64,000 nt of DNA, taken from Lampris incognitus (lineage: Eukaryota; Chordata; Actinopteri; Lampriformes; Lampridae). Under the pieces are notes generated by a model, which saw only the letters and a program-made list of their open reading frames with translations, was not told the origin of the DNA and made no database searches. The position numbers and the translations under genes are program-made. Positions 17,274 to 64,000 of the stretch are shown here, in pieces (within the stretch, counting starts at the first letter, position 1; every line of letters begins with the position of its first letter). Location: assembly GCF_029633865.1 (NCBI RefSeq), contig NC_079212.1, forward strand, positions 86,296,172-86,360,171, read 5' to 3'.

Positions 17274-17318
17274 ATGCCGACCGGAGCCAGCGACCCCGAC
17301 AGCATCCTGAGCTACCGG
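17274..17318 (+). CDS. slc4a8: slc4a8, coding exon 1 (Na+-driven Cl-/HCO3- exchanger NDCBE)
   Basis: Fifteen codons, MPTGASDPDSILSYR, end at CGG|GTACCG. They join in phase 0 to exon 2 (RPDEE...). Vertebrate SLC4A8 begins, from memory, with a short Met-Pro peptide ending in LSY just before RPDEE, so this is the expected N-terminus. The ATG has A at -3 and an in-frame TGA 15 bases upstream, which fixes the start. The product exchanges Na+ and bicarbonate for Cl- across the plasma membrane and regulates intracellular pH, notably in neurons. The donor GTACCG is weak, and a tandem array starts 12 bases beyond it. Confidence 0.85.
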
Positions 17319-17330
17319 GTACCGCAGCTT

Positions 17331-19337: not shown

Positions 19338-20087
19338 ATGTCTGACAACGAAGACGCCGGTGCTAACAACATGGCTATTGCTAACGCTAGCATTTACACC
19401 GCTACTGTGAAGCTACCCGACTTTTGGCAGCATAATCCACGGCCGTGGTTTCAACATGTGGAAGCCCAGTTCCAGCTGAGAGGGATAACGCAGGATGCAA
19501 CGCGGTACTTCCACGTAGTGGCGGCGTTAGACGCATCGACAACGGCGCGAGCAATGACACTGTTGGAAGCTCCGCCAGCTGCTGGCAAGTACGATGCTAT
19601 AAAGACATTCCTCCTGAAACTATTTGAACTGTCGGAGCTGGAGAAGGCAGACCGTTTACTGTCCCTGAATGGCCTCGGCGACGGCAAACCGTCTGAGTTA
19701 ATGGAAAAAATGCTGTCTGTGCTGGGATCGGCTGATCCGGCCTTTCTTTTCACACACATTTTTCTGAGGCAGCTCCCCGCACCTGTACGCACAGCACTGG
19801 CCAGTTCTCCTCTCGCCGCCTCCAAGGACTACCGTTCTCTGGCTGCTGAAGCAGACAGGGTTTTCCTGGCCAACCGGCAACAGTTTGTGCATGCCCTGCT
19901 ACCCCACCAGACCGCCCCACCACCACCTGTGTACGACTATATGGACACCGTGGCTGCGGTGACAGCCCGCCGCCAACCTGACGACGGGCTCTGTTATTAC
20001 CATGCCAGGTTTGGGGCAAAAGCAAAACGGTGTCGCAAACCCTGCAATTACAGGGTTCAGGGAAACGCCAAGGCCGGCGCTCGTTAA
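19338..20087 (+). CDS. Gag of G-A
   Basis: 249 residues. The N-terminal half has the pattern [20 protein letters not shown] followed by LRGIT and YFHVVAALD, typical of one group of Gypsy capsids in insects and flatworms. Near the C-terminus a Cys/His motif reads [18 protein letters not shown] (C-x2-H-x9-C-x3-C), that is CHCC, not the usual CCHC knuckle. The stop TAA at 20085-20087 lies inside the loop of the frameshift hairpin. Its start is the first ATG after the primer-binding site. The frame is fully open. An almost identical Gag is in G-B. Confidence 0.93.
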
Positions 20088-23000: not shown

Positions 23001-23230
23001 TCGCTATAGACCGTCTCAAGCCCGCTCACTTGGACATTGGGGAGCCAATGCAATTGGCCCTACCTCCGCGGCGGGGGTGCCCTCCTAGGTCGGCCCCGGC
23101 ACCTGCCTCTGTTCCTGCTTCGGCCCCGCCTATGGCCCGGGTTTCGGCCCCATCTGTTTCCCCTCCTGTGAAGCGCAGCCGTTATGGCCGCAGGGTCCGC
23201 CCCCCGACTCGTCACCTGTTTTCCCCGTGA
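20030..23230 (+). CDS. Pol polyprotein (PR-RT-RNase H-IN) of G-A
   Basis: 1066 residues from the ATG at 20030; the product probably begins at the frameshift near 20063. Protease motif VDSGAQ with Asp at residue 45. Reverse transcriptase with YLDD at 342-345. RNase H with TDASD near 494. Integrase with an HHCC finger (about 684-725) and catalytic residues in NVDLVGP (about 748), TSDRGSQF (about 809) and GLCERF (about 845). The C-terminal tail is Pro/Ala rich. No stop or frameshift interrupts it. No chromodomain and no env are seen. GC-rich codon use differs from the AT-rich LINE next door. Confidence 0.95.
20060..20105 (+). promoter_or_regulatory. Predicted -1 frameshift signal with GC hairpin (G-A gag/pol)
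   Basis: The heptamer GGGAAAC at 20060-20066 is read G_GGA_AAC in the gag frame. A 5-nt spacer (20067-20071) is followed by a perfect all-GC 9-bp stem: GGCCGGCGC (20072-20080) with GCGCCGGCC (20097-20105), and a 16-nt loop that includes the gag stop. Pol lies in the -1 frame. The same sequence is kept in copy G-B. GGGAAAC is a known retroviral -1 slip site. Confidence 0.85.
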
Positions 23231-26329: not shown

Positions 26330-28516
26330 TCACGGGGAAAACAGGTGACGAGTCGGGGGGCGGACCCCGCGGCCATAACGGCTGCGCTTCACAGGAAGGG
26401 AAACAGATGGGGCCGAAACCCGGGCCATAGGCGGGGCCGAAGCAGGAACAGAGGCAGGTGCCGGGGCTGACCTAGGAGGGCGTCCCCGCCGCGGGGGTAG
26501 GGCCAATTGCATTGGCTCCCCAATGTCCAAGTGAGCGGGCTTGAGACGGTCTATAGCGACCCGCTCCGGCCTGCCCCCCATGTCCACCACAAAGTTCTTG
26601 TCCCCCGCCTCCAGGACGCAGAAGGGCCCGTCGTATGGGGGCTGCAGCGGGGACCGATGGCTGTCGTGCCTAATGAAGACGTACCTCACCGATGGCAGAT
26701 CCTTGGGGACGTAGGACCGGGGGAGGCAGTGTTGAGACATCGGAATGGGAGCGAAGGCACCGGCAGCGCTCCGGGACGCACTGAGGTGAGAGGCGGCTGA
26801 CCAGGGAGCCGTAGCATCCGGAAGAAACTCCCCCGGAACCCGCAGGGGCTGGCCATACACGAGCTCAGCGGAGGAGGTCTGGAGGTCTTCCTTCGGGGCC
26901 GAACGCAGGCCGAGCATGACCCACGGGAGCCGGTCCATCCAGTCGCAGCCAGTGAGGCTTGCCCACAGAACGGCTTTCATGTCCCGATGGAACCGCTCAC
27001 AAAGTCCGTTGCTCTGCGGGTTGTACGCCGTAGTGCGGTGGATCTTCACCCCCAGGTGCTCAGCGACCGCCGTCCAGAGCTCCGAGGTAAACTGGGAGCC
27101 CCGGTCGCTCGTGATGTCACCCGGCGTGCCGAAACGGGCCACCCAGCAGCCGATGAACGCCCGTGCTACCTCTGCTGCCATCGTGGAGGACAAGGGAATA
27201 GCCTCTGGCCACCTGGTGGCCCTGTCCACAATAGTGAGGAGGAACGTATAACCACGGGAGGGGGGCAGGGGACCCACCAGGTCAACATTGATGTGGTCAA
27301 ACCGCCTCTCTGGAACCACAAATGGCGCCAAAGGGGCCTTGGTATGGCGGTGCACCTTGGCGCGTTGGCACGCCACACACGAGCCGGCCCAGGCTCTAAC
27401 ATCCTTACGGAGCCCAGGCCAAACGAACTTGACGCTCACCAGCTTGGTCGAGGCCTTCACTCCCGGGTGGGAAAGGCCGTGGACGTTGTCGAAAACTCGG
27501 CGCCGCCAGGAAGTAGGCAGCAGGGGGCGCGGTTGACCGGTGGAGATGTCACAGAGGAGGGTGGTGTTGGCCGCGTCGAACGTCACGTCCTCCAGCCGTA
27601 GCGCCATAGGGGTCGACCGGTAGTCTTGAACGGTCGCGTCCTTGACTTGGTCCGCTGCCATAGCGGCGTAGTAGAGTCCCAAGTGAACGGCGTTAACAAC
27701 CGCCCGTGAAAGGCAGTCGGCGACGAAGTTATCCTTGCCCGACACGTGTTGTATGTCCGTGGTAAACTCGGAAACCGCCGCGAGATGGCGCTGCTGACGC
27801 CCAGACCACGGTTCTGAGGTTTTGGCCATACAGAACGTCAGCGGTTTGTGGTCCACGAAAGCGGTGAACTGTCGGCCCTCCAATAGGAACCTAAAGTGTC
27901 TGGTTGCGAGGAAGAGACCCAGTAGTTCCCTATCAAAGGTGCTGTATTTGCGCTCGCTCTCACGGAGTTGTTTACTGAAGAACGCCAACGGCTGCCAGCC
28001 CCCCCCCACCCACAGCTCGGGGAAATTTGCGAGCAGGCGTTGGTATGGATCCCCGGTGGAGAGTGTGTTAGCGAGGCACAGCGCTCCAGCCCCCCCAAGC
28101 GTGCAGGGGTATGACGCAAAAGAGACGGCATCAATCACGCGACAGTTTTTAACATCCACCAGCAGGTTGAAAGCACAGATGAAATCCGCACCTAGGAGCG
28201 GGGTGGATACAGCAGCCATCACAAAGTCCCAGCCGAAACGTCGGCCGCCAAAACACACGTCCACATGTCTGATACCGTACGTCCGAATGGACGTGCCGTT
28301 GGCGGCGTCCATCTGGGGGCCGTGACTGTCGGTCATCGTGTCCACAGCTTGTGCTGGTAGTATGCTGCGTTGAGCGCCAGAGTCAACCAGCAGCCGCCGG
28401 CCCGACAAGGAGTCTCTGATGAACAACAGCTTGCAGTCACGGCCGGCGCCCATAGCCGTTAACGAGCGCCGGCCTTGGCGTTTCCCTGAACCCTGTAACT
28501 GCAGGGTTTGCGACAC
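26330..28516 (-). CDS. Pol of G-B, lacking the reverse transcriptase
   Basis: 728 residues instead of the 1066 in G-A. The protease (VDSGAQ), RNase H (from about the [19 protein letters not shown] region) and the complete integrase are kept. The segment between LLANFPEL and [11 protein letters not shown] is missing, that is the RT including the YLDD box. The junction is near 28008-28016. The deletion is a multiple of three, so the frame stays open to the normal stop. Four bases (GAGC) occur at both deletion endpoints in G-A. The protein cannot reverse transcribe on its own. It could still provide protease or integrase in principle, but this is speculative. Confidence 0.9.
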   Translation of the reverse strand: MSQTLQLQGSGKRQGRRSLTAMGAGRDCKLLFIRDSLSGRRLLVDSGAQRSILPAQAVDTMTDSHGPQMDAANGTSIRTYGIRHVDVCFGGRRFGWDFVMAAVSTPLLGADFICAFNLLVDVKNCRVIDAVSFASYPCTLGGAGALCLANTLSTGDPYQRLLANFPELWVGGGWQPLAFFSKQLRESERKYSTFDRELLGLFLATRHFRFLLEGRQFTAFVDHKPLTFCMAKTSEPWSGRQQRHLAAVSEFTTDIQHVSGKDNFVADCLSRAVVNAVHLGLYYAAMAADQVKDATVQDYRSTPMALRLEDVTFDAANTTLLCDISTGQPRPLLPTSWRRRVFDNVHGLSHPGVKASTKLVSVKFVWPGLRKDVRAWAGSCVACQRAKVHRHTKAPLAPFVVPERRFDHINVDLVGPLPPSRGYTFLLTIVDRATRWPEAIPLSSTMAAEVARAFIGCWVARFGTPGDITSDRGSQFTSELWTAVAEHLGVKIHRTTAYNPQSNGLCERFHRDMKAVLWASLTGCDWMDRLPWVMLGLRSAPKEDLQTSSAELVYGQPLRVPGEFLPDATAPWSAASHLSASRSAAGAFAPIPMSQHCLPRSYVPKDLPSVRYVFIRHDSHRSPLQPPYDGPFCVLEAGDKNFVVDMGGRPERVAIDRLKPAHLDIGEPMQLALPPRRGRPPRSAPAPASVPASAPPMARVSAPSVSLPVKRSRYGRGVRPPTRHLFSP

Positions 28517-29208
28517 CGTTTTGCTTTTGCCCCAAACCTGGCATGGTAATAACAGAGCCCGTCGTCAGGTTGGCGGCGGGCTGTCACCGCAGCCGCGGCG
28601 TCCATATAGTCGTACACAGGTGGTGGTGGGGCGGTCTGGTGGGGTAGCAGGGCATGCACAAACTGTTGCCGGTTGGCCAGGAAAACCCTGTCTGCTTCAG
28701 CAGCCAGAGAACGGTAGTCCTTGGAGGCGGCGAGAGGAGAACTGGCCAGTGCTGTGCGTACAGGTGCGGGGAGCTGCCTCAGAAAAATGTGTGTGAAAAG
28801 AAAGGCCGGATCAGCCGATCCCAGCACAGACAGCATTTTTTTCATTAACTCAGACGGTTTGCCGTCGCCGAGGCCATTCGGGGACAGTAAACGGTCTGCC
28901 TTCTCCAGCTCCGACAGTTCAAATAGTTTCAGGAGGAATGTCTTTATAGCATCGTACTTGCCAGCAGCTGGCGGAGCTTCCAACAGCGTCATTGCTCGCG
29001 CCGTTGTCGATGCGTCTAATGCCGCCACTACGTGGAAGTACTGCGTTGCATCCTGCGTTATCCCTCTCAGCTGGAACTGGGCTTCCACATGTTGAAACCA
29101 CGGCCGTGGATTATGCTGCCAAAAGTCGGGTAGCTTCACAGTAGCGGTGTAAATGCTAGCGTTAGCAATAGCCATGTTGTTAGCACCGGCGTCGTCGTTG
29201 TCAGACAT
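28459..29208 (-). CDS. Gag of G-B
   Basis: 249 residues, almost identical to the G-A Gag with a few substitutions (for example the start MSDNDDAG). The CHCC motif is kept. The same -1 frameshift heptamer and hairpin overlap its 3' end (around 28441-28486), so the gag/pol expression signal has been preserved although RT is lost. Confidence 0.92.
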   Translation of the reverse strand: MSDNDDAGANNMAIANASIYTATVKLPDFWQHNPRPWFQHVEAQFQLRGITQDATQYFHVVAALDASTTARAMTLLEAPPAAGKYDAIKTFLLKLFELSELEKADRLLSPNGLGDGKPSELMKKMLSVLGSADPAFLFTHIFLRQLPAPVRTALASSPLAASKDYRSLAAEADRVFLANRQQFVHALLPHQTAPPPPVYDYMDAAAAVTARRQPDDGLCYYHARFGAKAKRCRKPCSYRVQGNAKAGAR

Positions 29209-29245
29209 ACTCGTATTAGTAGTTCGATCACGTCGGGGTCACCAA

Positions 29246-29457
29246 TGTGGAGTTAGAAAACAACGAGACAGGAGACGTGAGAGTAGACGTAGTCGAGGTA
29301 GTTTACTAGCTCCAACTTTGCATGTCATACGTTCGACAACGACACTGAACTGTGTACCGGAAGCGGAAGTTCATTATCTGACCCCTCGCCTCTTCCCTTA
29401 AAGGTACACCGTCCTCTTAGGTGAATGTCTCTAGTTATATAGATGTGGGTCACCACA
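29246..29457 (-). repeat. 5' LTR of G-B with adjoining primer-binding site
   Basis: 212 bp. The plus-strand sequence just left of it (ATCACGTCGGGGTCACCA, 29227-29244) is the reverse complement of the tRNA-Trp type primer-binding site, as in G-A. Confidence 0.93.
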
Positions 29458-29461
29458 ATAG

Positions 29462-30993
29462 AATCTATGGATAATTTTGAAAGATATTTCTTTTACTTTA
29501 TTAGTCAAGAGGAACTTATGAGGTAAAAGCCAAATTTTTTCCCAAACAATTTTTTCACCAACAAAGGCAGACCAATAAGATAAGGCAGAGGGTGAGCTAA
29601 TAATATCTTGTTGAAACAGTTGACGAATAATCTTGTTTTTGTTCTTGGTGTTCCATGAAAAGCATGCTTTCCCAACAGTTGTTTCAGTTACATCTACTGA
29701 TATAGGGAGATTAACATTCACATTAACACCTTTGAAAATTGAAACAATACCAGAGGGAACAGCATCAAAAACAATAGTAAATTCTTTAGGTGTAACAGGG
29801 AATCTATAATGTTGAATGAATTCAACATAATTGTAAAGTTGCCCATGTTGGTTAAACAACTGACTAATCAAAAGAATATTGTTGTCAAACCACTGTTTGA
29901 AAAAGATAGATTTGTTTTTATACAGCAAATATCTATTATTCCAAATAAAAAACCTGTGAGGAGAAAAGTTGTGTTTGTAAATTAGACACCATGCCAGTAA
30001 CATTTGTTTGTGGAACGAAGAAAGTTTGAGGGGGATTTTGTCAATGTTATAGTTACATAGAAGCAAAAATTTAAGACCACCAATTGAAGAAAAGACAAAA
30101 TGGGGAATGAAATTCCAAAGAGAAGATGGACATATAAGGTAACGTCTGATCCAATTTATTTTAAAGGTGTAATTTAGTGTGGAAAAGTCTAAAACATTAA
30201 GGCCACCATTATTGTATTCGCTCATCAGAACAGATTTCCGAAGATAATGGGTGCGGTTTTTCCATACAAAATCAAGTAATATTTTATCTATTGTTTTGCA
30301 TATATGACTATCTATACCTAATGACAGTGCAGCATATGTTAATCTTGATATTCCTTCAGCCTTTGAGAGGAGAATTCGGCCCCTTAAAGATAAGTCACGT
30401 AAGAGCCACAGATTGAATTTTTGTTTAACTTCGTTAATTATTGGATTGAAGTTAGTGTTACATCTTTGGGATTCATTTTTATCTATAATGATACCTAAAT
30501 AAGTAACCGAATTTTTAACTTGAATATTGGAAATTGAATCAACACAACAATCTTTGATAGCTAATAATTCACATTTTTTAAGATTTAAATGAAGGCCCGA
30601 AGCTTTAGTAAATTGTTCTATAATATTAATAGCTAAAGGTACTTGGGAGCTGTTTTTTAGAAATAAAGTGGTGCCATCCGCTAGTTGACTAATTACAATA
30701 GTTCTATCAGCAATAGAAACACCTTTCAGATTACTACACTTAATATGGTCACATAAAAGTTGGGCAGCGAGTAGAAATAAATATGGCGATATCAGGCAAC
30801 CTTGACGAACGCCACGTTTGACCTCAAACCTGGAAGATGGCCCATATTTAAGCTTGATTGAACAGTTGGCATTATTGTAAAGGGTTTTAATTGTATTGCA
30901 AAAAAAGTCTCCAAACCCAAATTTCTTTAACGAATGAAAGAGAAAAGTATGTTCCACCGTGTCAAAGGCTTTAAAGAAGTCTAAGAAGAGCAA
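29462..30993 (-). pseudogene. L1-A ORF2, second half of RT and thumb region
   Basis: Continues in the same frame as the upstream part after a single stop near 31036. RT blocks: LDFFKAFDTVEH, GVRQGCLISPYLFLLA. The catalytic box reads QLADGTTLFL (near 30680) where L1 elements have [FY]ADD; the second Asp is Gly, which would destroy polymerase activity. Further conserved parts are SVTYLGIIIDKN and GGLNVLDFSTLN. It ends where the G-B LTR begins. Confidence 0.85.
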
Positions 30994-31035
30994 AAAGCTG
31001 TAATCAGAAATGAGGTGTGAGTAATCAAGTACATC

Positions 31036-32871
31036 TTAAACTAGTCTAATATTGTTGGTGATGTGTCTATTAGGCATGAATCCTGATTGTGCTTCATCAA
31101 TTATGGAATCTAGAACTTTCTTGATTCTTCTAGCAAGAATCATGGCCAATATTTTATAGTCATTATTTAGAAGAGAGATTGGGCGCCAGTTGTCAATATA
31201 AAGCGGATCTTTGCGTGGTTTAGGAATTAATGTAATTAAACCTTGTGTCATACTTGCAGGTAAACAACTGGATGATAGGCTTTCATTAAACACTTGTAGA
31301 AGAAATGGTTCCATCTGCTGTGAAAACAATTTATAGAATTCAGAAGATAAGCCATCTGTTCCCGGAGATTTGTTCTCCTTTAAATAATTAATACAGTTGC
31401 TAACCTCTGTTAGTGATAAGGGGAGATCACAAAGATCTCTTTCAGAGTCTTTAAGTCGAGAGGTATGCTGTAGTGAATTCAGGAACGTTTTAGTATTATC
31501 TTCAGAGTATTCAGATGTGTACAGGTTTTTATAAAAAGTAGAACAAAAATCAGATATTATATTTGGGTCATCTGTTATATTATCATAAATTTTTAGTTCA
31601 TTAATGGTATTAATTTTTGCACGATATTTTTCTAGTTTGAAAAAATATGCAGAGTTCTGTTCACCCTTTTCTAGCCATTGTGTCCACGATCTAATAAACG
31701 CTCCTTCTGCCCTTCTTTTATAGATCACATCAAGTTTCTCTGACTCATACAATTTAATTTTGTCTTCTTTTGTTAAGGCATCTGGTGAAATTTGAGAGAG
31801 TAAAGAAATATCTGTGATAATGTTCTGTTCTTCTAATTTCCTAATTTTGGCAAGATTACTTCCGTAAATCCTAAAATATTTCACTGATTCATACTTAAAT
31901 AGCTCCCAGTTTAATCTGAATGAATTATTTATTTTTGCCTTATCAAAGTAAAGCGTTATCAATTGTGAAATTTTCATTTTAACGTCCTCATATTTAAGAA
32001 GAGAGTTGTTCAATTTCCAAAATTTGGCTTTGCAGCTTTTATCAGAGGGAAACAGATTAATTGATATGTAGATAGCCTTATGATCACTTAAGGGACAAGG
32101 GATAACATTTACTGTGATATCATGTTCGTTAAAATGTTTGGAAACTAACCAAAAATCTAAACGAGAAAGCCTTGTGTTTCCTTTGTTCTTCCAAGTGAAC
32201 GTTACCGTATCTGGGGATTTGACTCTCCATATGTCTACTAAATCATATCTTTCTATAAAAGATTTAATAAAATAGTTTCTGTTATTATCTTGTGTAGGTG
32301 GCCATCTATCTATAAGTGGATTCAAAGTTACATTAAAGTCTCCTCCAATTATTATTTGGGAATTTGGAAATTTAGTGAGCCAATGTTTAAGTCTATTCTC
32401 TATGACAGTAAATAATTGAGAATTTTCTAAATTAGAGTTGTATCCATACACATTAACAATAATCAAAATAATTTTATCATAACTGACAATTTGACAGATA
32501 AAATGTCCTTTAGGATCTGTGGCTGTGTGTAGGATGTCACCGTTATATCTATTTTTCATGGTTAAGACACCCGCTGATCTTTCTGAGCTGTGAGAAAACC
32601 ATAAATCGTTACCCCATTGGGCTCTCCAAAAATTCACATCACTTACGATTGAGTGTGATTCTTGACAGAAACAAAAATCTGTATCAAACTGTTTCGAAAA
32701 TAAAAATAATGCTTTACGTTTTGTAACATTCCTTAACCCCCTGGCGTTTAGGGAAACTATAGACAAAGAAATTCTTAAGATAAGAAAACTTACGAAATAA
32801 TACTGAACAAGTAATGACCTGGTACGCTGAGCATTAGTTGCACTTGGAGCAGTCAACATAGTAGGTGACAA
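31036..32871 (-). pseudogene. L1-A ORF2, endonuclease and N-terminal RT
   Basis: The endonuclease has VSLNARGLRN, FCQESHS (catalytic Glu), GGDFNVTLNP and SDHKAIYISI (terminal Asp-His), all landmarks of the APE-type nuclease in L1. The linker is followed by ENKSPGTDGLSSEFYKLF, LIPKPRKDP, NWRPISLLNNDYK and DEAQSGFMPNRH. The stop at 31036-31038 (TAA) is in frame with the rest of ORF2, so it is a point nonsense change rather than the natural end. The true start is probably near SLSIVSLN, not the first Met. Confidence 0.88.
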
Positions 32872-33138
32872 TATAATATAAATTGAGCAAAATAAGGGTG
32901 TCCTACATGTTTTAAACCACTTAGTTTTTCAAGCTGTTGTCTATAAAAAAATCAGTAGGATAAAACATTGTAAGAAATATTGTAAGAAAAGAATGCAAAC
33001 TAAATGAGAGTTCCAGTAGGCTCAGTTGTCCCTGTGATGAAAAGTCTAACAGCACACCAGTTTAGAGAGTCAGGAGACTGAGCTTTGTTGGACCTGCAAG
33101 CCATGAAAAAGGCAGAGTTGAAATCAGTCATGTTTACC

Positions 33139-35202: not shown

Positions 35203-35412
35203 TGTAATGAATGAAAGGTCACGTGTTTAACTTGACCTACTCACGGGTGTACGTGCAGTGCGTGTGACGTATGCAGGAAGTTAGACGCGCATGTTATGAA
35301 GGTTGTATGTTGGATGAACGCTAGTAAAAGCTACACAGTTAAGAACCTACGAAGTCGGCTCCTTCTTGAATTATTCTTATGTCAGTAAGACAAGGTGTCT
35401 ACGGACATTACA
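35203..35412 (+). repeat. 5' LTR of G-C
   Basis: 210 bp from TGTAATGAATG to GACATTACA; one T/C difference from the 3' LTR. Confidence 0.95.
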
Positions 35413-35424
35413 TGGTGTCAGAAT
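35413..35424 (+). promoter_or_regulatory. Primer-binding site, tRNA-Leu-like
   Basis: TGGTGTCAGAA directly follows the LTR and is complementary to the 3' end of a tRNA-Leu as I recall it (…TTCTGACACCA). The match is about 11 bases, so the assignment is moderate. Confidence 0.6.
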
Positions 35425-35451
35425 AGTCTGTGTATCGGAACACGAGCGGTC

Positions 35452-38400
35452 ATGCCGAAGTTTAATCCGCCGAGTGAATTCAAGTTTGACTGCCCCGTTG
35501 AATGGCCGGAGTGGAAACAACGGTTTTCGCGCTTCAGGCTCGCGACAAAGCTGGATAAAGACGACGGGGAGATTCAAGTGAGTTCGCTGATTTATGCAAT
35601 GGGCAGCGAGGCTGAAAAGATATTCAGCTCGTTTGACTTCGCGGCGGAGGGTGATAAAGTGGACTATGATATCGTACTGAAAAGGTTCGACGGCTACTTT
35701 ATTCCCCGCCGTAACATCATACATGAGAGGGCGTGCTTCTATCAACGTAGCCAGCAGCTAGGAGAGACAGCGGAGATGTACATCCGGACATTGTATGAGC
35801 TGTCTGAACACTGTGAGTTTGGGGACAAGAGGGATGAACATATCAGAGATCGTCTGGTAGTGGGCATAAAAGATAAGGTGCTCTCCCGTCAGTTCCAGCT
35901 CACAGCGGACCTTACTCTGGTGAAAGTCATTGAACAAGTGCGCCAGGCGGAGGCAATAACAAAGCAGCTCAGCCTCCAAGCTAACCAACCAGAGGCCCAG
36001 CTGGCTAACGTCAATGTTGTCCGACGGCGGGACGGACGCCAAAACAAAAAGGGCGGACAGCGTCATGGTGGCAGCAGACCTGCAACCAACAAAGTAGATG
36101 AATGCGGGAGGTGCGGCAAGACGCAGCACACCGATGAGCGGAAGTGTCCTGCAACGAACAGTAAGTGCAACAAGTGTCATAAAAAGGGACATTGGGAGCG
36201 TGTATGTCACTCTAAAGCGGTGAGAGAAGTCACTGAAGAGGTTAAACAGCTGTACTTTCTGGGAGAAGTTGGCAAAGAGAGCAGTCAGGAAGATTGGACT
36301 GTTAGTTTAACAATAAGTGATGTACCAATAACCTTTAAAATTGACACGGGGGCTGACGCTACTGTTATCAACCAAGGGACATTTAAAAAGCTGAAGCCAA
36401 ACATAAAACTGGGACCTCCTGACACATGCTTCATAAGCCCAGGTGGAAACATCAGCTGCATAGGACAGTTTCAAGCCACAACCAACTACAAGGAGAAACA
36501 ATACTCCTTTCCAGTGTATGTGATCAAGGGGAGAGGCAGCTGTCTGCTGAGTCGTCCAGAGGCAGTGGAGATGGGTCTAGTGAAGCGGATGAATGAGGTC
36601 AGTGGAGTTTTCGGTTCAAGTGGACTGCTGAAAACAGACCCAGTGAAAATAGCTCTGGTGGAGGGTGCCCAGCCATACGCGGTGCATACAGCCAGACGGA
36701 TACCGCTGCCACTTGTACCACTGGTTAAGAAAGAACTGCAGCGCATGGAAAATGAGGGCATTATTGAAAAAGTGACTCAGCCCACAGAATGGTGCGCCGC
36801 TATGCTGCCGGTGCTGAAACCGAACAAGAAAGAGGTTCGCTGCTGCGCTGACCTCAGGAGGCTGAATCGAGCGGTGAAACGTGAGAAATACGTGCTGCCC
36901 ACTATGGAGGAAATAACGCAGAGGCTCGCAGGGTCAAAGTTCTTCACAACGTTGGATGCAGCAAGTGGGTTTTACCAGATCCCCTTGCATGAAGACAGCA
37001 GGGGGCTCACCACTTTCATCACCCCATTTGGGAGGTATGCTTTCTGCCGCCTTCCATTTGGTATAACGAGTGCTCCAGAGATTTTCCAGAGAAAGATGGC
37101 GGAAACTCTGACCGGGCTAGAGGGCACAGAGGTGTACATGGATGACATCCTTATACATGGAGAGACTGAGGAAATCCATGACCGGCGCCTAGCAGAGGCG
37201 CTGGGGGTCATTGAAACAGCAGGTCTCAAACTTAACCAAGCGAAATGCAAGTTCAAACAGAAACAAGTCCGCTTCCTTGGTCACATCATCGACGAGGCAG
37301 GCGTCAGACCTGACCCGGACAAATAGGCCGGAATAGAGAACTTTCCTCAGCCCCAGAACGTGACGGAACTCAAGAGGTTCCTCGGGATGGTGAACTATTT
37401 GGCAAAATACGTCCCAGAGCTGTCCACTGTAGGTCAGCCGCTTTATGGACTGCTTAAAGCAACGACAGAGTGGCTGTGGGGACCTGCACAGAACACAGCA
37501 TTCCAAGACCTTAAAGCAGCACTCGCCACCGCCCCGGTACTCACCTTTTATGACGTCACTAAGGCTACGGTGGTGTCAGCAGATGCCAGCAGCTACGGGC
37601 TGGGAGGCGTTCTGCTCCAGCAGCACGGGGAACACTGGAAGCCCGTGGCCTACTGCTCCCGACGGCTGAGTGACGCAGAGACAAGGTACGCACAGATCGA
37701 GAAAGAGTGCTTAGCCAGCGTCTGGGCATGTGAAAGGTTCGAGAAGTACTTGTTTGGGCTTGACAATTTCAGACTTGTCACCGATCATAAACCACTAGTG
37801 CCTCTCATGAACAGCAAAGACTTGGATAATGTGCCCATTAGGTGCCAGAGACTGTTAATGAGGCTGATGCGTTTCAATGCAGTGGCTGAATACGCACCAG
37901 GCAAAACTTTAGCTGTGGCTGATGCACTCTCCAGAGGCCCAGAGCAGCGCTACGGAGATGGTGCTTCTCATGATGATGTTGCAGCGCACATTGATGCCAT
38001 CGTGTGCCAGGTGCCTGCCACACCTCAAAGGATGCAGGAGATAAAACAGAGCACGGATGGGGATCTGCAGCTCCAGACAGTGTTGGGCTTCATCAGACAC
38101 GGCTGGCCTGAGTATGTCGATAAAGTGCCGGAGACAGTCAGAGACTTTTATCAGGTGAGAGGGGAGTTATCTGAGGTAGATGGTTTAGTCATCAGAGGCA
38201 GTCGTATCGTCATTCCCACAGAGATGAGGGAGGTGATCTTAGACAGAATACACGACGGGCACCAGGGGATAGTTAAGTGCAGAGAGAGAGCTAGCCAGTC
38301 AGTGTGGTGGCCCAAAATGACAGAGCACATTACAACAAAGATACAGCAATGTCAATTCTGCAGAGAACACAAGAACACACAGAGAAAAGAGCCTTTAATG

Positions 38401-39300
38401 TCAAGTGAGCTCCCATCCAGACCATGGCAGAAAGTTGGCATAGACCTGTGTGAGTACAAAAAGCAAAACTACTTGATAGTGTCTGACTATTATTCCAGGT
38501 TTTTGGAGATCCTAAATCTACCAACAACTACTAGCAGTCAGGTTGTAGCTAGGCTGAAGGCTACATTTGCACGTTTTGGTATCCCTGAAATTGTAGTTAG
38601 CGATAATGGGCCACAGCTAGTTTCAGAAGAGATGAGGAGGTTCAGTGAGGATTATGATTTCATCCATGTGACTTCAAGCCCACACTACCCCCAGAGTAAT
38701 GGAAAGGCAGAGAGGGCTGTTCAGATAGCCAAAAGCATATTAAGGCAGGAAGACCCTCTCCTCGCCCTGTTGACATACAGAGCTACACCCTCTTCTTCCA
38801 CTGGAGCCAGTCCAGCGGAATTGCTCATGGGTAGGAGACTCAGAACCACCTTACCCACATTGCAGCATAACCTGAAACCGGCCTGGCCTAAAGAGGAACT
38901 GATCAAAACCGCTGACGCCGCAGCCAAATCGAGGCAGGCTTTCTACTACAACCGCAGGAACGGCGTGCGGACACTGCGCCCACTGAACTCGGGTGACGCA
39001 GTACTCACCAAACCTGATGGACAGAAAACATGGACAATGCCAGCAGTTGTTCACAGTCAGAGCTCCACTCCCAGATCCTACATAGTGGAGACAGCTCAAG
39101 GTGAACATTACAGAAGGAACAGGCGCCACCTGTTGGCCACACCTAAAACACTCACCTTTGTCAGCAGGGATCCTGACCATGTCACTCCAGGGGAGAGTGG
39201 AAACACGGATGAGTCCCGAGCAGCAGAAATGCCAACTTCCACACCATATGTTACTCGCTCTGGCAGGGTGAGCAAGCCTGCAATCCGGCTGGATTTGTGA
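35452..39300 (+). pseudogene. Gag-Pol of G-C, one in-frame stop
   Basis: A single frame encodes Gag and Pol. Start at 35452 (MPKFNPPSEFKFD); an earlier ATG at 35395 lies inside the LTR and is not used. Two zinc knuckles at about residues 217-252 (CGRCGKTQHTDERKC, CNKCHKKGHWERVC). Protease DTGAD near 298. RT with YMDD near 561. TAG at 37324-37326 (codon 625) just before the RT connection (NVTELKRFLGMVNYL). RNase H SADASS near 709. Integrase with an HHCC finger from about 934 and DDE in IDLCEY, SDNGPQ and GKAERA. Apart from the amber codon it is fully open, so the copy is either freshly dead or dependent on read-through. Confidence 0.92.
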
Positions 39301-40652: not shown

Positions 40653-41187
40653 CTGCTTCCGGTGAGGGAAGATGGCGGCGCGAATTCACGTTTGCAGCGG
40701 CCTCATCCAGTACCGTCCATGCAGTGTCTTTGTCCATGCACGTCTGCGTCTAAGTTTGTCTTCGTTTGATGGCTGGGAGAGCTGGCGCTGGATCAGCTGG
40801 GAGAGCTGGGCAGGCTAAGCTAACTGCTAGCCCATGCAGACCGGCAGTTCCGATAACACCAAGGGCGGTCTGGCGGCGGCCTCACCTGGCGTTGACTGTG
40901 TGGTGTTTTTAGCGTCGTCGTGAGGAGTGAGGGGAGGTGTGTCGAGGGTGTCTGGCTGGGAGAGCTGGCGCTGGATCGGCTGGGAGATGTTGGTCTGCTA
41001 CGTCCGGTGGGCCTGGGGACCACGGCCCCTGCCTGGAGCTGCGTCTGCAGAGGAAACGCCGATGGGTGTCTGACAGGACGCGGAAGCGGGCGGGCTAAGC
41101 TAACTGTTAGCCCACGCAGACTGGCGGTTCTGACAGTCACCCTGGCTGGTATTCGTCCCCCTGGACAGTGATTTTTTTGTTGTTTAG
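40653..41187 (+). repeat. Family R copy R3, head and body
   Basis: Begins CTTCCGGTGAGGGAAGATGG, followed by the body shared with R1 (GCTAACTGCTAGCCCATGCA). The body runs into GTGATTTTTTTGTTGTTTAG and then directly into the 18-bp array. The R tail is at about 43925-44030. Confidence 0.85.
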
Positions 41188-43925
41188 TTTGGATATATGT
41201 GTTAGTTTGGGTATGTGTGTTAGTCTGGGTATGTGTGTTAGTGTGGATATGTGTGTTAGTGTGGGTATGTGTGTTAGTCTGGGTATGTGTGTTTAGTGTG
41301 GGTATGTGTGTTAGTTTGGGTATGTGTGTTAGTGTGGGTATGTGTATTAGTTTGGGTATGTGTGTTAGTGTGGGTATGTGTGTTAGTATGTGTATGTGTG
41401 TTACTGTGGGTATGTGTGTTAGTCTGGGTATGTGTGTTAGTGTGGATATGTGTGTTAGTTTGGGTACGTGTGTTAGTCTGGGTATGTGTGTTAGTGTGGG
41501 TATGTGTGTTAGTGTGGGTATGTGTGTTGGTTTGAGTATATGTGTTAGTGTGGGTATGTGCGATAGTGTGGGTATGTGTGTTAGTCTGGGTATGTGTGTT
41601 TGGTGTGGGTATGTGTATTAGTTTGGGTATGTGTGTTAGTGTGGGTATGTGTGTTAGTGTGGGTATGTGTGTTAGTCTGGGTATGTGTGTTAGTATGGAT
41701 ATGTGTGTTAGTGTGGGTATGTGTGTTTAGTGTGGGTATGTTTATTAGTTTGGGTATGTGTGTTAGTGTGGGTATGTGTGTTAGTGTGGGTATGTGTGTC
41801 AGTTTTGGTATGTGTGTTAGTGTGGATATGTGTGTTAGTGTGGGTATGTGTGTTAGTGTGGGTATGTGTGTTAGTTTGGGTATGTGTGTTAGTGTGGGTA
41901 TGTGTGTTAGTGTGGGTATGTGTGTTAGTCTTGGTATGTGTGTCAGTTTTGGTATGTGTGTTAGTTTGGGTATGTGTGTTAGTGTGGGTATGTGTATTAG
42001 CTTGGGTATGTTTGTTAGTGTGGGTATGTGTGTTAGTGTGGGTATGTGTGTTAGTGTGGATATGTGTGTTAGTCTTGGTATGTGTGTTAGTCTTGGTATG
42101 TGTGTTAGTTTGGGTATGTGTGTTAGTGTGGGTATGTGTGTTAGTCTGGGTATGTGTGTTAGTGTGGGTATGTGTGTTAGTGTGGGTATGTGTGTCAGTT
42201 TTGGTATGTGTGTTAGTGTGGATATGTGTGTTAGTGTGGGTATGTGTTAGTGTGGGTATGTGTGTTAGTTTGGGTATGTGTGTTAGTGTGGGTATGTGTG
42301 TTAGTGTGGGTATGTGTGTTAGTCTTCGGTATGTGTGATAGTGTGGATATGTGTGTTAGTTTTGGTATGTGTGATAGTGTGGGTATGTTTGTTAGTTTGG
42401 ATATGTGTGATAGTGTGGATATGTGTGTTAGTTTGGGTATGTGTGATAGTGTGGATATGTGTGTTAGTGTGGGTATGTGTGATAGTGTGGGTATGTGTGT
42501 TAGTTTGGGTATGTGTGATAGCGTGGGTATGTGTGTTAGTGTGTATATGTGTGATAGTGTGGATATGTGTGTTAGTGTGGGTATGTGTGTTAGTGTGGGT
42601 ATGTGTGTTAGTGTGGGTATGTGTGTTAGTATGGATATGTGTGTTAGTGTGGGTATGTGTGTTTAGTGTGGGTATGTGTATTAGTTTGGGTATGTGTGTT
42701 AGTGTGGGTATGTGTTAGTGTGGGTATGTGTATTAGTTTGGGTATGTGTGTTAGTGTGGGTATGTGTATTAGCTTGGGTATGTTTGTTAGTGTGGGTATG
42801 TGTGTTAGTGTGGGTATGTGTGTTAGTGTGGATATGTGTGTTTGTCTTGGTATGTGTGTTAGTATGGATATGTGTGTTAGTGTGGGTATGTGTGTTAGTC
42901 TGGGTATATGTGTTAGTGTGGGTATGTGTGTTAGTTTGGGTATGTGTGTTAGTGTGGGTATGTGTGTTAGTCTGGGTATGTGTGTTAGTATGGATATGTG
43001 TGTTAGTGTGGGTATGTGTGTTAGTTTGGGTATGTGTGTTAGTTTGGGTATGTGTGTTAGTGTGGGTATGTGTGTTAGTCTGGGTATGTGTGATAGTGTG
43101 GATATGTGTGTTAGTTTTGGTATGTGTGATAGTGTGGGTATGTGTGTTAGTGTGTATATGTGTGATAGTGTGGATATGTGTGTTAGTGTGGGTATGTGTG
43201 TTAGTGTGGGTATGTGTGTTAGTGTGGGTATGTGTGTTAGTTTGGGTATGTGTGTTAGTGTGGATATGTGTGTTAGTCTGGGTATGTGTGTTAGTGTGGG
43301 TATGTGTGTTAGTATGGATATGTTTTTTAGTGTGGGTATGTGTGTTAGTTTGGGTATGTGTGTTAGTGTGGGTATGTGTATTAGTTTGGGTATGTGTGTT
43401 AGTGTGGGTATGTGTGTTAGTATGGATATGTGTGTTGGTTTGGGTATGTGTGTTAGTTTGGGTATGTGTGTTAGTGTGGGTATGTATGTTAGTTTGGGTA
43501 TGTGTGTTAGTGTGGGTATGTATGTTAGTGTGGGTATGTGTGATAGTATGGATATGTGTGTTAGTGTGGGTATGAGTGTTAGTGTGGGTATGTGTGATAG
43601 TGTGGATATGTGTGTTAGTTTGGATATGTGTGATAGTGTGGATATGTGTGTTAGTCTGGGTATATGTGATAGTGTGGATATGTGTGTTAGTTTGGGTATG
43701 TGTGTTAGTGTGGGTATGTGTGATAGTGTGGATATGTGTGTTAGTTTGGGTATGTGTGATAGTGTGGATATGTGTGTTAGTTTGGGTATGTGTGATAGTG
43801 TGGAGATGTGTGTTAGTTTGGGTATGTGTGATAGTGTGGATATGTGTGTTAGTTTGGGTATGTGTGATAGTGTGGATATGTGTGTTAGTCTGGGTATGTG
43901 TGTTAGTGTGGGTATGTGTGTAGTT
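41188..43925 (+). repeat. 18-bp minisatellite, about 150 units, inside R3
   Basis: The unit is AGTGTGGGTATGTGTGTT with common variants (AGTTTGGG, AGTCTGGG, GATATG, TGTGATAGTGTGGAT). The first unit (AGTTTGGATATATGTGTT) matches the two units in R1. Dimeric 36-bp periods appear around 43590-43880. Because 18 is a multiple of three, long frames open on both strands (up to about 460 codons); these are artefacts. Confidence 0.97.

Positions 43926-47838: not shown

Positions 47839-47890
<52 letters not shown>
47838..47890 (+). repeat. (CA)n microsatellite
   Basis: About 25 pure CA units. Confidence 0.97.

Positions 47891-48010: not shown

Positions 48011-48108
<98 letters not shown>
48010..48108 (+). 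repeat. Long (CA)n microsatellite
   Basis: About 49 uninterrupted CA units, separated from the preceding CA run by 120 bp. Confidence 0.97.

Positions 48109-59805: not shown

Positions 59806-59868
<63 letters not shown>
59806..59868 (+). repeat. (TG)n run forming the exon 2 acceptor region
   Basis: About 31 uninterrupted TG units ending seven bases before exon 2 (CCAACAG|AGG). There is no ordinary polypyrimidine tract between the run and the acceptor. The nearest T-rich stretch lies upstream of the run (TTTTTCTGTTTGTGTCG, about 59771). Confidence 0.97.
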
Positions 59869-59870
<2 letters not shown>

Positions 59871-59875
59871 AACAG

Positions 59876-59957
59876 AGGCCAGATGAGGAGGTAGTGGTGG
59901 ACCAGGGGGGGACCAGCTCGGTGCTCAACATCCACTATGAGAAGGAAGAACTAGAAG
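59876..59957 (+). CDS. slc4a8: slc4a8, coding exon 2
   Basis: 82 bp, acceptor CCAACAG|AGG and donor GAAG|GTGAGT. It encodes RPDEEVVVDQGGTSSVLNIH followed by YEKEELE plus the first base of Gly. This is the conserved N-terminal cytoplasmic segment of the Na+-coupled bicarbonate transporters; the -VVDQGGTS-x-LNIHYEKEELEGHRTL pattern fits SLC4A8 better than SLC4A7 or SLC4A10, as I recall these proteins. It joins exon 1 in phase 0 and exon 3 in phase 1. The acceptor sits beside a 63-base TG run, which is unusual. Confidence 0.93.
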
Positions 59958-60748
59958 GTGAGTAACCCAACAACAGACCCGCGCGTCCCCGTCCACGTCT
60001 CTGCACTGCTAATGAACTCACCTTCCTCCAAGGATCAGCGTCTATAGGCCACGTGTGTGATGGGGCAGTGCTTTTTCATGCATACCCATATCGTATTCCT
60101 ATGTCAGCTGTGTGTTGACGTGTCTGGACCGTAACTTTCTGTGTCCTGTGCGGCCATGGCCGTTCAGAAAGCTCTCATGCGGGGGTGTTTTGAGGACAAG
60201 CCGATGTTTGTTTTTGTTTTTTGTCACCGTGTCCTCTTGTCTGTTGGAGATAAATGCGGCTTAGTATTAATAATAAATCCTCCATCGAGTCTGAGTAGGC
60301 TGAAGGGGGCTAATATGTCATCCCTAGGGGAAACAGGTGTGAGAATGTGCTCTCGTTGCCCTTGTGTGTGTGTGTGCGTGCGCGTGCATGAGGGTATCTG
60401 GGTGTAGTGTATCTGTTCTGTGTGTGTCCTATGTGTCTCCTATGTGCGTGTTACAAACGATCACTTTCCTGCAGGGATTATGATGCTGTGTGTTTGGAGA
60501 TTTAGGGGGAACAATTTGCTCCACCGCACCAGCTTTGTGTTTTAATTGTGTCCTAAAATATACTCAGATTGTGTTCACGCACACACACACGCGCACGCAC
60601 ACACAGGGCAAATGGCCTCAGAGCGTCCCGTGCCAGAAACCTTGCTTCATCGTGTATAATTCACGAGTGCTGACGCTGAACCTGTTGTACCAGTTTGTTC
60701 ACTTAAATCAGCAGCTGTGCACACTGTCTTTTTTCAAATCTGTGTTTG
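59958..60748. other. slc4a8 intron 2, first part
   Basis: GT/GC-rich runs near 60365-60385 and a short CA run near 60585-60606. No other feature. Confidence 0.55.
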
Positions 60749-60885
60749 GGCGCCCAGGTAGTGAAGCGGTCTATTCCGTTGCCTAACAACATGGGGATCG
60801 CCGGTTTGAACCCCGTGTTCCCTCCAGCTTGGTCAGGTGTCCCTACAGACACAATGGGCTGTGTCTGCGGGTGGGAAGCCGATGT
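60749..60885 (+). mobile_element. tRNA-derived SINE, 5' half (S5)
   Basis: Head GGGCGCCCAGGTAGTGAAGC (A-box-like), B-box region GGTTTGAACCCC (mutated). It stops at GGAAGCCGATGT, exactly where S6 resumes at 61335, so S5 and S6 are one SINE split by an insertion. Confidence 0.85.
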
Positions 60886-61334
60886 CGATACTTGATCTAC
60901 TCGCCCTGCTCGGGGTGCTGCGACTACAGATGACATCGCTACTTCACGCATTATGAATGGGTAGGGGCTTGGGTAGGGGCTTGGGTAGGGGCTTGGGTAG
61001 GGGCTAGTTCAGTTTAGGAACAGCGGGAAACAGTAGATTGAGATTGACGTTAGATGCAGCTTGGGCCTTCGGCCCTCGCGCACATTCGCTCGTCCAGGAC
61101 CTGGGAGGGGAGGGGGGGGGGTCCTGAGCCTACGGCCTTGCTCCTTAGACGCAGCTTGGGCCGTAGGCCCTCACACCTTTACTAACCAACTCTATGTCAA
61201 CGTGGATTGTAAAAAACACACAGCTAAATAACTATAAAGCTAGCTAGCTAGCTAGCAACATAATCCATGACGTCATATGTAGTCGAAGGACCCCGAGTCG
61301 ATATTGTACCCGAGCAGAAATGGAATCCACACCT
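60886..61334. mobile_element. 449-bp insertion splitting a SINE, with inner inverted repeats
   Basis: Flanked by GATGT on both sides (60881-60885 and 61335-61339). Imperfect inverted repeats lie near its ends: CTCGGGGTGCTGCGACTACA (about 60913) and the complement of TGTAGTCGAAGGACCCCGAG (about 61278). Inside are a 15-bp unit GGTAGGGGCTTGGGT (four copies, about 60960-61005) and a GCTA run (61237-61256). Probably a MITE; the class is not resolved. Confidence 0.6.
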
Positions 61335-61615
61335 GATGTGGGTATGTGTCCTGGTTGCTGCACTAGCGCCTCCTCTGGTCGGTCGGGGCACCTGTTCGGG
61401 GGGACTGGGGGGGAATAGCGTGATCCTCCCACGTGCTACATCCCCCCTGGTGAAACTCCTCACTGTCAGGTGAAAAGAAGCGGCTGGTGACTCCACATGT
61501 ATGGGAGGAGGCATGTGGTAGTCTGCAGCCCTCCCCGGATCGGCAGAGGGGGTGGAGCAGAGACCGGGACGGCTCAGAAGAGTGGGGTAATTGGCCAAGT
61601 ACAGCTGGGGAGGAA
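61335..61615 (+). mobile_element. tRNA-derived SINE, 3' half (S6)
   Basis: Continues the SINE body from GATGTGGGTATGTGTCC to GGTAATTGGCCAAGTACAGC. See S5. Confidence 0.85.
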
Positions 61616-62321
61616 AAAAAAAGTGGGGGGGGTCTTTAAAAAAAAATCTGTGTTTTGCTACCAAGGAGGAACTGTAGCACTCCACATGCTGGGCAGTGTA
61701 AGTGAAAGGTTGGTGCTGGGTGGGATTTCTGCCATGTCGAAGCGCGTTTATGCCCAGCACCTCGTTAGGCAGGGCAGACATAATTGGGGTTGGCAGGGGA
61801 CTCATAAAAAGCTGAAGCCCGCTGCCACTGCAGCAAGATGCCTCTCCCCGTGGGCCTGCAGCTAACCTTCACTTGAATGGTTTTGAACTTGAATCTTATT
61901 TAATGGTCTCAATCTGCAGTGTGAGGAGCACAGCCTGCCATCTAACAGCGCTGCTCTGCCCACAGGCGCTGCCCTCCTCCCTCCGCCCTTCATCCACCGC
62001 TCTGCCCTTCCCCTTCACGGCTCTGTCCCAGCAGAGTGATATATTCAGTGATATATTCAGTGATATATTCAGTGATATAATTAATGGTGACTTCATCTGC
62101 CCCCAGCAGGGTTACTTCCATCAGAAATGATCAATTAAAATGGATTGTGCTAATTATCCATGGAAATTTTATGTAATTCATTGATACCCAGAAAGAATGT
62201 TTTTTTACGGAAGTGATTAGATTTGTACCTTTGGTGCACTTCAGTTTCTGTTCAATGTTATCACGTCAGTGTTGTCGGTGAAAACCCCAAATTAACACCA
62301 GAGCGATCGGGATTTCACTCC
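61616..62321. other. slc4a8 intron 2, middle part
   Basis: Holds a 14-bp tandem GTGATATATTCAGT (about four copies, 62036-62080). Otherwise nothing recognised. Confidence 0.6.
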
Positions 62322-62323
62322 TA

Positions 62324-62695
62324 CCTAAAACGACCGTGGGTTTAGTATGTCTGTTATGAAACTAACTGACACCAAAATTAAAAATTTAACAACTTTAATA
62401 CTATTTTTCAAACAATTTAAAATGGCCGCTGTCCAACGCCTGTGAATACTGCAGCGCCTCGGTGGTAGTCATGGTGCGTCTGTAACGGGGTCTGTAACCA
62501 GACATGTTGGACATAATCACACATCAAGTTCAGACTATTTCTCTCCACTGGAGGGCGCTAGTGTGTTTCTAGGACAGAGCAACGAACTTCAAGAAGGAAA
62601 TGACGCCACCAACATACGTCATCAATACTGACATGACGCGCACGATCACACGCAAATTATGCGCGGTCTTCTTGACCGCTCATGGTCGTTTTAGG
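62324..62695. mobile_element. MITE with TA duplication, 372 bp
   Basis: Inverted ends CCTAAAACGACC (62324-62335) and GGTCGTTTTAGG (62684-62695), with TA on both sides (62322-62323 and 62696-62697). No coding capacity. The TA duplication suggests a Tc1/mariner-type element, but the end sequence is not one I recognise. Confidence 0.65.
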
Positions 62696-62994
62696 TAGAT
62701 CTTGTCATACCTTTTTTTTCGTGCAGTTGATCAAAATCTCATTTTAAAGCAGATATATGCAGTTTCAGCAGCATTCAGGGAGCGGCAGGTCTGTATGTTT
62801 ATTTTCACATTAAAAATCCCAAACCATCAAAATGGCGGCCCAGGTCGGTCTAGTTTAACTTAACCCGGTACTAAACATTCTCCCGTGTAAACGCAACTGG
62901 ATGGTAAACCACGGCAGCGTGACAAGGTTTTAACGCTGCTTTGCTTATTTAAATCTAGATTTTTTCAGGTAATGATATAAATTCACCCCCTCAG
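62696..62994. other. slc4a8 intron 2, distal part
   Basis: No feature recognised. It contains the last AG dinucleotide (62993-62994) before the exon 3 acceptor. Confidence 0.55.
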
Positions 62995-63004
62995 TCATAT
63001 TTTA

Positions 63005-63898
63005 CCCCGCCTCTTTCCTCTCTTCTTCTGTCTCTCTGTCCTCTCCCCTCTCTTCTTCTGTCTCGCTGTCCTCTTCTCTCTCTTCTTCTGTCTCTCTGTC
63101 CTCTCCCCTCTCTTCTTCTGTCTCTCTGTCCTCTTCCCTCTCTTCTTCTGTCTCTCTGTCCTCTCCCCTCTCTTCTTCTGTCTCTCTGTCCTCTTCCTTC
63201 TCTTCTTCTGTCTCTCTGTCCTCTCCCCTCTCTTCTTCTCTCTCGCTGTCCTCTTTCCTCTCTTCTTCTGTCTCTCTGTCCTCTTCCCTCTCTTCTTCTA
63301 TCTCTCTGTCCTCTCCCCTCTCTTCTTCTGTCTCTCTGTCCTCTTCCCTCTCTTCTTCTGTCTCTCTGTCCTCTCCCCTCTCTTCTTCTGTCTCTCTGTC
63401 CTCTTCCTTCTCTTCTTCTGTCTCGCTGTCCTCTTCCCTCTCTTCTTCTGTCTCTCTGTCCTCTTCCCTCTCTTCTTCTGTCTCTCTGTCCTCTCCCCTC
63501 TCTTCTTCTCTCTCGCTGTCCTCTTTCCTCTCTTCTTCGGTCTCTCTGTCCTCTTCCCTCTCTTCCCTCTCTTCTTCTGTCTCTCTGTCCTCTTCCCTCT
63601 CTTCTTCTGTCTCTGTCCTCTTCCTTCTCTCCCCTCTCTTCTTCTGTCTCTGTCCTCTTCCTTCTCTCCCCTCTCTTCTTCTGTCTCGCTGTCCTCTTCC
63701 CTCTCTCCCCTCTCTTCTTCTGTGTCTCTGTCCTCTTCCCTCTCTTCTTCTTTCTCTCGGTACTCTCCCCTCTCTTCTTCTGTCTCTCTGTCCTCTCCCC
63801 TCTCTTCTTCTGTCTCCCTGTCCTCTTCCCTCTCTTCCCTCTCTTCTTCTGTCTCTGTGTCCTCTCCCCTCTCTTCTTCTGTCTCTCTGTCCTCTACC
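63005..63898 (+). repeat. 30-bp polypyrimidine minisatellite leading into the exon 3 acceptor
   Basis: About 30 units of TCTCTCTGTCCTCTTCCCTC followed by TCTTCTTCTG. Alternating CTCTCCCC and CTCTTCCC variants give a partial 60-bp period. The plus strand is almost purely C/T with isolated G and contains no AG at all until the acceptor CTCTACCAG. It is therefore a giant polypyrimidine tract. The complementary strand has a 326-codon Glu/Arg/Asp-rich frame that is an artefact. Confidence 0.97.
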
Positions 63899-63900
63899 AG

Positions 63901-64000
63901 GCCACAGGACTCTGTTTGTGGGGGTGCGAATGCCGCGGCAGAGCCACCGCCACCACAAGACCCACAGCTCCCGCCACCGCAAGAAGGACAGAAGGGCTGG
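63901..64000 (+). CDS. slc4a8: slc4a8, coding exon 3 (partial, runs off the window)
   Basis: Acceptor CTACCAG|GCC. After completing the Gly from exon 2 it encodes HRTLFVGVRMPRQSHRHHKT followed by HSSRHRKKDRRAG. The GHRTL-[FY]-VGVRMP motif followed by a His/Arg/Lys-rich stretch is the conserved N-terminal domain segment of SLC4A8, where such basic/His repeats precede the cytoplasmic regulatory domain. The frame is open to the window edge; the donor is not reached. Confidence 0.93.

Follow-up and report, generated by a model that had tools for sequence, protein, structure and literature searches.

The last copy of a pyrimidine minisatellite as the candidate exon 3 acceptor of a putative slc4a8 gene in Lampris incognitus

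How might an intron be removed when the sequence in front of its acceptor holds no adenine at the distance at which branch points are usually found? This question is raised by a stretch of 64,000 nucleotides from the fish Lampris incognitus (hereafter, the window), at the end of which what appears to be the third coding exon of slc4a8 is preceded by a long tandem array consisting almost entirely of pyrimidines. The features discussed below are collected in Table 1, where the exon numbers count coding exons.

The gene itself is probably a sodium-bicarbonate transporter. Its exons, placed at 17274-17318, at 59876-59957 and from 63901 on, are in phase with one another and read MPTGASDPDSILSYRRPDEEVVVDQGGTSSVLNIHYEKEELEGHRTLFVGVRMPRQSHRHH..., and exons 2 and 3 together matched one sequence in the PDB, "Sodium bicarbonate cotransporter 3" (9ovr, E = 8.5e-11), which we take to be SLC4A7. 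Exon 1 was assigned to slc4a8 by its presumed resemblance to human SLC4A8, and the gene appears to us to fit slc4a8 best among the human N-termini, over slc4a7 or slc4a10; the identity of 63901 onwards as slc4a8 exon 3 is supported but not proven. The phase and the protein match also suggest that the acceptor at 63900 is a real splice site, and intron 2 has the features of a U2-type GT-AG intron, with the donor gtgagt at 59958, a pyrimidine tract and ctctaccag ending at 63900. Intron 1 is 42,557 nt long and holds reverse-transcriptase, RNase H and integrase open frames. Across the window, reverse transcriptase, RNase H, integrase and endonuclease open frames occupy 945-5669 and 10839-12161, upstream of exon 1, and 19982-23227, 26333-32928 and 35389-39297, within intron 1; we take the elements to be of the LTR (Ty3/gypsy-type) and LINE types.

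Table 1. Positions in the window of the slc4a8 exons, intron 2, the array and the candidate branch sites
Feature	Position	Strand	Description	Basis
slc4a8 coding exon 1 (MPTGASDPDSILSYR)	17274..17318	+	donor GT at 17319	reading frame, joining phase
slc4a8 coding exon 2 (RPDEEVVVDQGGTSSVLNIHYEKEELE + first base of Gly)	59876..59957	+	donor gtgagt at 59958	phase, PDB match of exons 2+3
Intron 2	59958..63900	+	3943 nt, GT-AG; array occupies last 891 nt	
Candidate branches A62981, A62985	62981..62985	+	just outside AG-free zone	
AG-free zone	62995..63898	+	904 nt	
Candidate branch A63004 (TTTTAC, fits yTnAy)	63004	+	inside AG-free zone, 896 nt before intron's last base	
Pyrimidine minisatellite	63010..63900	+	28 core-defined units, consensus TCTTCTTCTGTCTCTCTGTCCTCTyCCCTC	
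Copy 28, carrying acceptor CTCTACCAG	63872..63900	+		
Non-adenine branch candidate U63882 (in UUCUGUC)	63882..63882	+	18 nt before intron's last base	inference
slc4a8 coding exon 3 (GHRTLFVGVRMPRQSHRHH...)	63901..64000	+	window stops within exon 3	

The array is a minisatellite in the ordinary sense, an extended run of head-to-tail units within the range of about 10-60 bp. TRF placed it at 63010-63895 with a period of 30, 28.2 copies and a score of 1158, and splitting it at the core TCTTCTTC gives 28 units, 22 of them exactly 30 bp long, three of 39 bp, two of 37 bp and one, the last, of 29 bp; the tail of a preceding unit begins at about 63010. The 889 bases of 63010-63898 comprise 428 T, 397 C, 61 G and 3 A, there are 15 different unit sequences among the 28 copies, and exact repeats inside the array reach 124 bp. 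Units 1-17 are regular, and since the irregular ones are units 18-27, nearer the exon, recent copying probably took place in the 5′ part of the array; of the lags from 1 to 11 units compared within 63021-63530, nine gives the highest identity (0.97) and the others 0.93-0.95. The original prediction held that the acceptor is built on a polypyrimidine minisatellite, and the position of the acceptor AG in the last copy supports it: the first 24 nt of copy 28 (TCTTCTTCTGTCTCTCTGTCCTCTACCAG) are identical to the commonest units, and its last five hold the acceptor.

With the acceptor situated within copy 28, the polypyrimidine tract of intron 2 itself is the most likely origin of the array. Five bases separate A63004 from the start of the repeat, which accounts for 891 of the 896 nt from this adenine to the end of the intron. 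Were only copy 28 retained, A63004 would stand 45 nt from the intron's last base instead of the present 896 nt, which we counted in favour of an expansion, as it falls inside the range of -15 to -55 where, according to passages of Corvelo (PMC2991248), about 96% of predicted human branch points lie. In the simplest history, an ordinary stretch from branch point to acceptor would have been amplified where it stood, although the window has one yTnAy per 64 nt, so that the edge position of A63004 could be due to chance. When we looked for an origin from a dispersed repeat, no other part of the window matched the unit, in ungapped comparison, with fewer than 7 mismatches of 30, and searching viral contigs and prokaryote genome contigs for an exact 25-mer from the unit gave 0 contigs of either kind, the result to be expected for animal DNA.

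The absence of AG from this region, which had been claimed for 62995-63898, was confirmed on the plus strand at exactly 904 nt. The AG at 62993-62994 is followed by that of the exon 3 acceptor at 63899-63900, with 906 bases between AG starts, and the second-longest AG gap in the window is 161. The probability of 904 AG-free bases is about 1e-31 under a first-order Markov model of the window and about 1.5e-24 under a model of intron 2 without the array. When the model is based instead on the dinucleotides of the array plus one added AG, the probability is 0.36; given the array, the absence of AG is thus unremarkable, and the zone is a by-product of copying one AG-free unit. Selection against AG inside the array was considered and rejected as an explanation: the 26 substitutions counted among units 1-27 predict about 0.62 new AGs, as 2.4% of random ones would create an AG, and to see zero is uninformative. 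Two of the 26 substitutions led to A and 11 to G, counts from which we draw no conclusion because several of the G changes are shared between copies. Given this low expectation and the probability under the array's own make-up, the zone is informative on the founding unit rather than on selection.

The loss of adenine is a stronger oddity than the lack of AG. No adenine is found at 63763-63895, that is, from 5 to 137 nt before the intron's last base, there is no TNA motif in 63005-63900 (the last 896 nt), and, besides A63896 and the acceptor's own A, the array has only two adenines, A63300 and A63762, located 600 and 138 nt before the intron's last base and pairing with U2 at 2/6 positions each. 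The idea that the array moves the usable branch point is therefore not borne out, as it does not offer branch points of the usual kind. With no adenine 5-137 nt from the end and no TNA over the final 896 nt, the spliceosome has to rely on a very distant branch or on a non-adenine branch in the array, unless splicing is impaired. The predicted adenine candidates cluster at the 5′ edge of the array. A63004 is followed by no AG before the acceptor, which supports a branch at the edge, but its U2 pairing (3/6, weight 5, a weight reached by 38.6% of the window's adenines) is poorer than that of A62981 (UAUAAAU, 5/6) and A62985 (TTCAC, which fits yTnAy, 4/6), both of which are beyond an AG. For these two to serve, the AG at 62993, which follows them by 12 and 8 nt, would have to be bypassed, and passages of one study indicate that AGs very near the branch site can be (PMC1431707).

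We consider that the most plausible account, with a probability of roughly 0.4, is that the native tract was tandemly duplicated to 28 copies and that exon 3 is spliced at 63900 through a branch at the array's edge. The tract between the branch point and the acceptor of intron 2 would have become a minisatellite whose last copy retained the acceptor AG, and, because the founding unit would have had neither A nor AG, the extra copies would have extended the AG-free zone and added no competing acceptor. Exon 3 would most likely still be spliced at 63900, with the lariat forming at or near the 5′ edge of the array, either at A63004 inside the zone or at A62985 or A62981 just outside it; we favour one of these adenines as the branch only tentatively. 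The array would be occupied by U2AF and PTB-type proteins, and the second step would take an acceptor about 900 nt away.

Several properties of the array RNA bear on this distance. It is predicted to be practically unfolded, with an MFE of -2.3 kcal/mol for 896 nt and structures at least as stable in 12 of 20 shuffles. No exact complement of the array of at least 10 nt exists in the rest of intron 2 (there is one of 9 nt; Watson-Crick pairs alone were counted), and none of at least 14 nt exists in positions 1-63004 of the window. Introns bridged by complementary repeats of the AC/GT type are a known class, and self-bridging of this sort was rejected here because exact complementarity within the intron stays below 10 nt. 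Because the RNA is unfolded and has no exact partner in the intron, about 900 nt would be the true span, with nothing intrinsic shortening it, and this exceeds the spans of the mapped or mutation-tested distant branch points, which in the published passages lie within about 400 nt.

The composition of the array had also led to predictions about what might bind it or how it might fold as DNA. That of binding by PTB-type proteins is in keeping with the abundance of the corresponding words (77 TCTT and 49 CTCTCT in 896 nt, as raw counts), which are predicted sites only. That of triplex or H-DNA formation is unsupported beyond composition, as the mirror-arm counts are no better than those of shuffled sequences: there are 0 perfect mirror arms of at least 10 in the array, whereas 50 mononucleotide shuffles averaged 2.38, and 16 centres of one-mismatch arms of at least 15, against a mean of 9.65, with 5 of 40 dinucleotide shuffles reaching 16. 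By this mirror-repeat comparison, the array was rejected as an H-DNA forming tract. It resembles intron 21 of PKD1 in being a very long intronic polypyrimidine tract, but the latter is known mainly for non-B DNA and instability, whereas the mirror symmetry of the slc4a8 array is what its composition would give.

Other ways of completing, or failing to complete, the removal of intron 2 have to be weighed against a branch at the array's edge. That the branch is instead a base other than adenine in the final copies, such as U63882, seems to us somewhat less likely than an edge adenine. This uridine lies at the usual branch distance, and of the non-adenine sites located 12-60 nt from the end it has the best U2 pairing (5/6, with a weight of 9 that 1.6% of the window's adenines reach), equalled by the identical word in the preceding unit. 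Introns without TNA do exist and amount to 0.44% of human introns when the last 500 nt are searched, according to passages of PMC2991248. Nevertheless, UUCUGUC occurs here as a component of the repeat unit and therefore cannot be read as a mark of selection. Non-adenine branches are, moreover, a minority in mapped sets, which counts against U63882. If such a branch were nonetheless used, copy number may matter little, as UUCUGUC is present in most units. A further notion, in which the array would be a tandem of near-identical non-adenine branch modules whose uridine branching allows copy number to tune exon 3 inclusion without an adenine branch, strikes us as unlikely. It is also very improbable that one of the stray adenines, A63762 or A63300, has turned into the branch point; they are the sole adenines in 63005-63895, and 138 nt falls in the distant-branch range known from published passages, but TNA is matched by neither of them and their U2 pairing is poor.

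The acceptor might instead be weakened, with exon 3 partly skipped or with the upstream CAG (62968) or TCAG (62994) taking its place. A conventional-looking site does lie upstream, where UUUUAAC, whose A62933 pairs with U2 better than any other adenine scored from 62930 onwards, precedes by 35 nt the AG of TTTTTTCAG, itself directly followed by GTAATG. No stop interrupts the frame that starts at 62995 and runs across the array into exon 3, and longer distances between branch and acceptor go with more skipping in passages of PMC2991248. We nonetheless judge this outcome to be distinctly unlikely: the boundary at 63900 is in phase with exon 2, an extra AG (TCTAG, 62958-62959) lies between A62933 and the CAG, splicing to the CAG would add 932 nt, a length not divisible by 3, and so shift the frame of exon 3, and by our rough estimate about one YYYYYYCAGGT is expected per 64 kb. 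The open array, for its part, follows from the near-absence of A, and the chance of being in frame is 1 in 3. Finally, the array could be real but its length an assembly product, over- or under-counted, as exact internal repeats of up to 124 bp mean that short reads could not have ordered it; this we hold to be improbable, since a simple duplicated-read artefact would not yield 15 different units among 28 copies.

The upstream region has some features of its own. The segment 62960-62974 reads like an acceptor directly followed by a donor, is the sole [CT]6CAGGT match on the plus strand of the window, and could be a decoy or a recursive splice site; the pattern of a recursive site, a tract with YAG and then a donor, was matched once, here, where about one per window was estimated by chance. 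If the site were recursive, its donor at 62969 and A63004, 35 nt apart, would be too close for joint use. Use of the AG at 62994 as an acceptor would add to exon 3 a total of 302 in-frame codons, rich in Ser, Leu and Pro and free of stops, an extension that is open because the array is nearly without A.

Repeats are also found elsewhere in the gene. A 29-bp minisatellite at 17347-17786 starts 28 nt past the exon 1 donor and contains 13 CTAAC words, each 23-29 nt before a YAG and nine of them at exactly 24, so that most of its units look like a small branch point with an acceptor; this could be chance or a decoy array. A (TG)31 tract at 59806-59868 lies directly 5′ of the exon 2 acceptor (AG 59874-59875), in front of which the sequence is AG-free from 59771 and has no TNA after 59758, and (CA)24 at 47842 and (CA)48 at 48013, both in intron 1, could pair with it. 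Intron 1 further holds a 2.7-kb array at 41184-43921 with 152 copies of the 18-bp unit TTAGTGTGGGTATGTGTG. Three of the four slc4a8 splice sites seen in the window are within 30 nt of an array, as are 16.7% of positions when 38 intervals merged from 51 TRF rows are used, but the binomial P of 0.016 is post hoc and we do not claim a clustering.

The original prediction took AG exclusion zones (AGEZs) to be normally tens of bases long, and this needs qualifying: passages of Gooding (PMC1431707) describe human zones 381, 438 and 1126 nt in length, as well as a repeat-derived zone of 369 nt, and count AGEZs of at least 100 in 838 of 67,334 exons. With 904 nt, the putative slc4a8 acceptor fits this class of distant-branch or long-AGEZ acceptors as far as the AG-free length of at least 100 nt upstream is concerned. 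As described in the same passages, human PTB exon 11 (AGEZ of 381), nPTB (438, with a predicted branch at -389) and rat alpha-tropomyosin exon 3 (branch at -175) share with slc4a8 hundreds of AG-free bases before the acceptor and branch candidates toward the far end, but their adenine branch sites are good ones and a tandem array is not mentioned there, whereas the slc4a8 zone is a minisatellite without good adenine sites. An intron of human tyrosine phosphatase sigma comes closest in scale, with a kilobase-scale AGEZ of 1126; unlike slc4a8, it is reported to have potential branch sites along the zone (-1079, -829, -288 and -171; PMC1431707). Human exon IDB1079466.8106 likewise has an AG-free repeat upstream of its acceptor, the AGEZ of 369 coming from a repetitive element, but its only good candidate branch is given as -17 (PMC1431707), within the stretch where slc4a8 has no adenine. 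The OGDH megaPPT, with an AGEZ of about 280 nt and distant branch points in vertebrates including fish (passages of PMC7969005), is similar in its long pyrimidine tract and long AGEZ, and it differs in being conserved and tied to mutually exclusive exons.

Branch points predicted beyond 100 nt amount to 0.4% (688 of 173,284) in passages of PMC2991248, and passages on fission yeast report that splicing is less efficient when branch and acceptor are far apart and then depends on helper proteins, of which humans have orthologues (PMC9508853). Among the titles and abstract openings that our searches of an open-access library brought up, we found none on a minisatellite forming the pyrimidine tract of an acceptor. 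The slc4a8 case is a variant of the known long-AGEZ acceptors in which the zone is a minisatellite, the acceptor lies in its last copy and the conventional branch window is free of adenine.

If the acceptor is used, the locus would be a natural test of the reach of the second step over about 900 nt of unstructured pyrimidine RNA or, alternatively, of the reliance of a vertebrate intron on a non-adenine branch. If it is not, the locus would show a minisatellite degrading the recognition of a coding exon. Such an array could vary between individuals, and it suggests a simple route by which a tract may expand without penalty, as a unit with neither A nor AG adds length and no competing signals.
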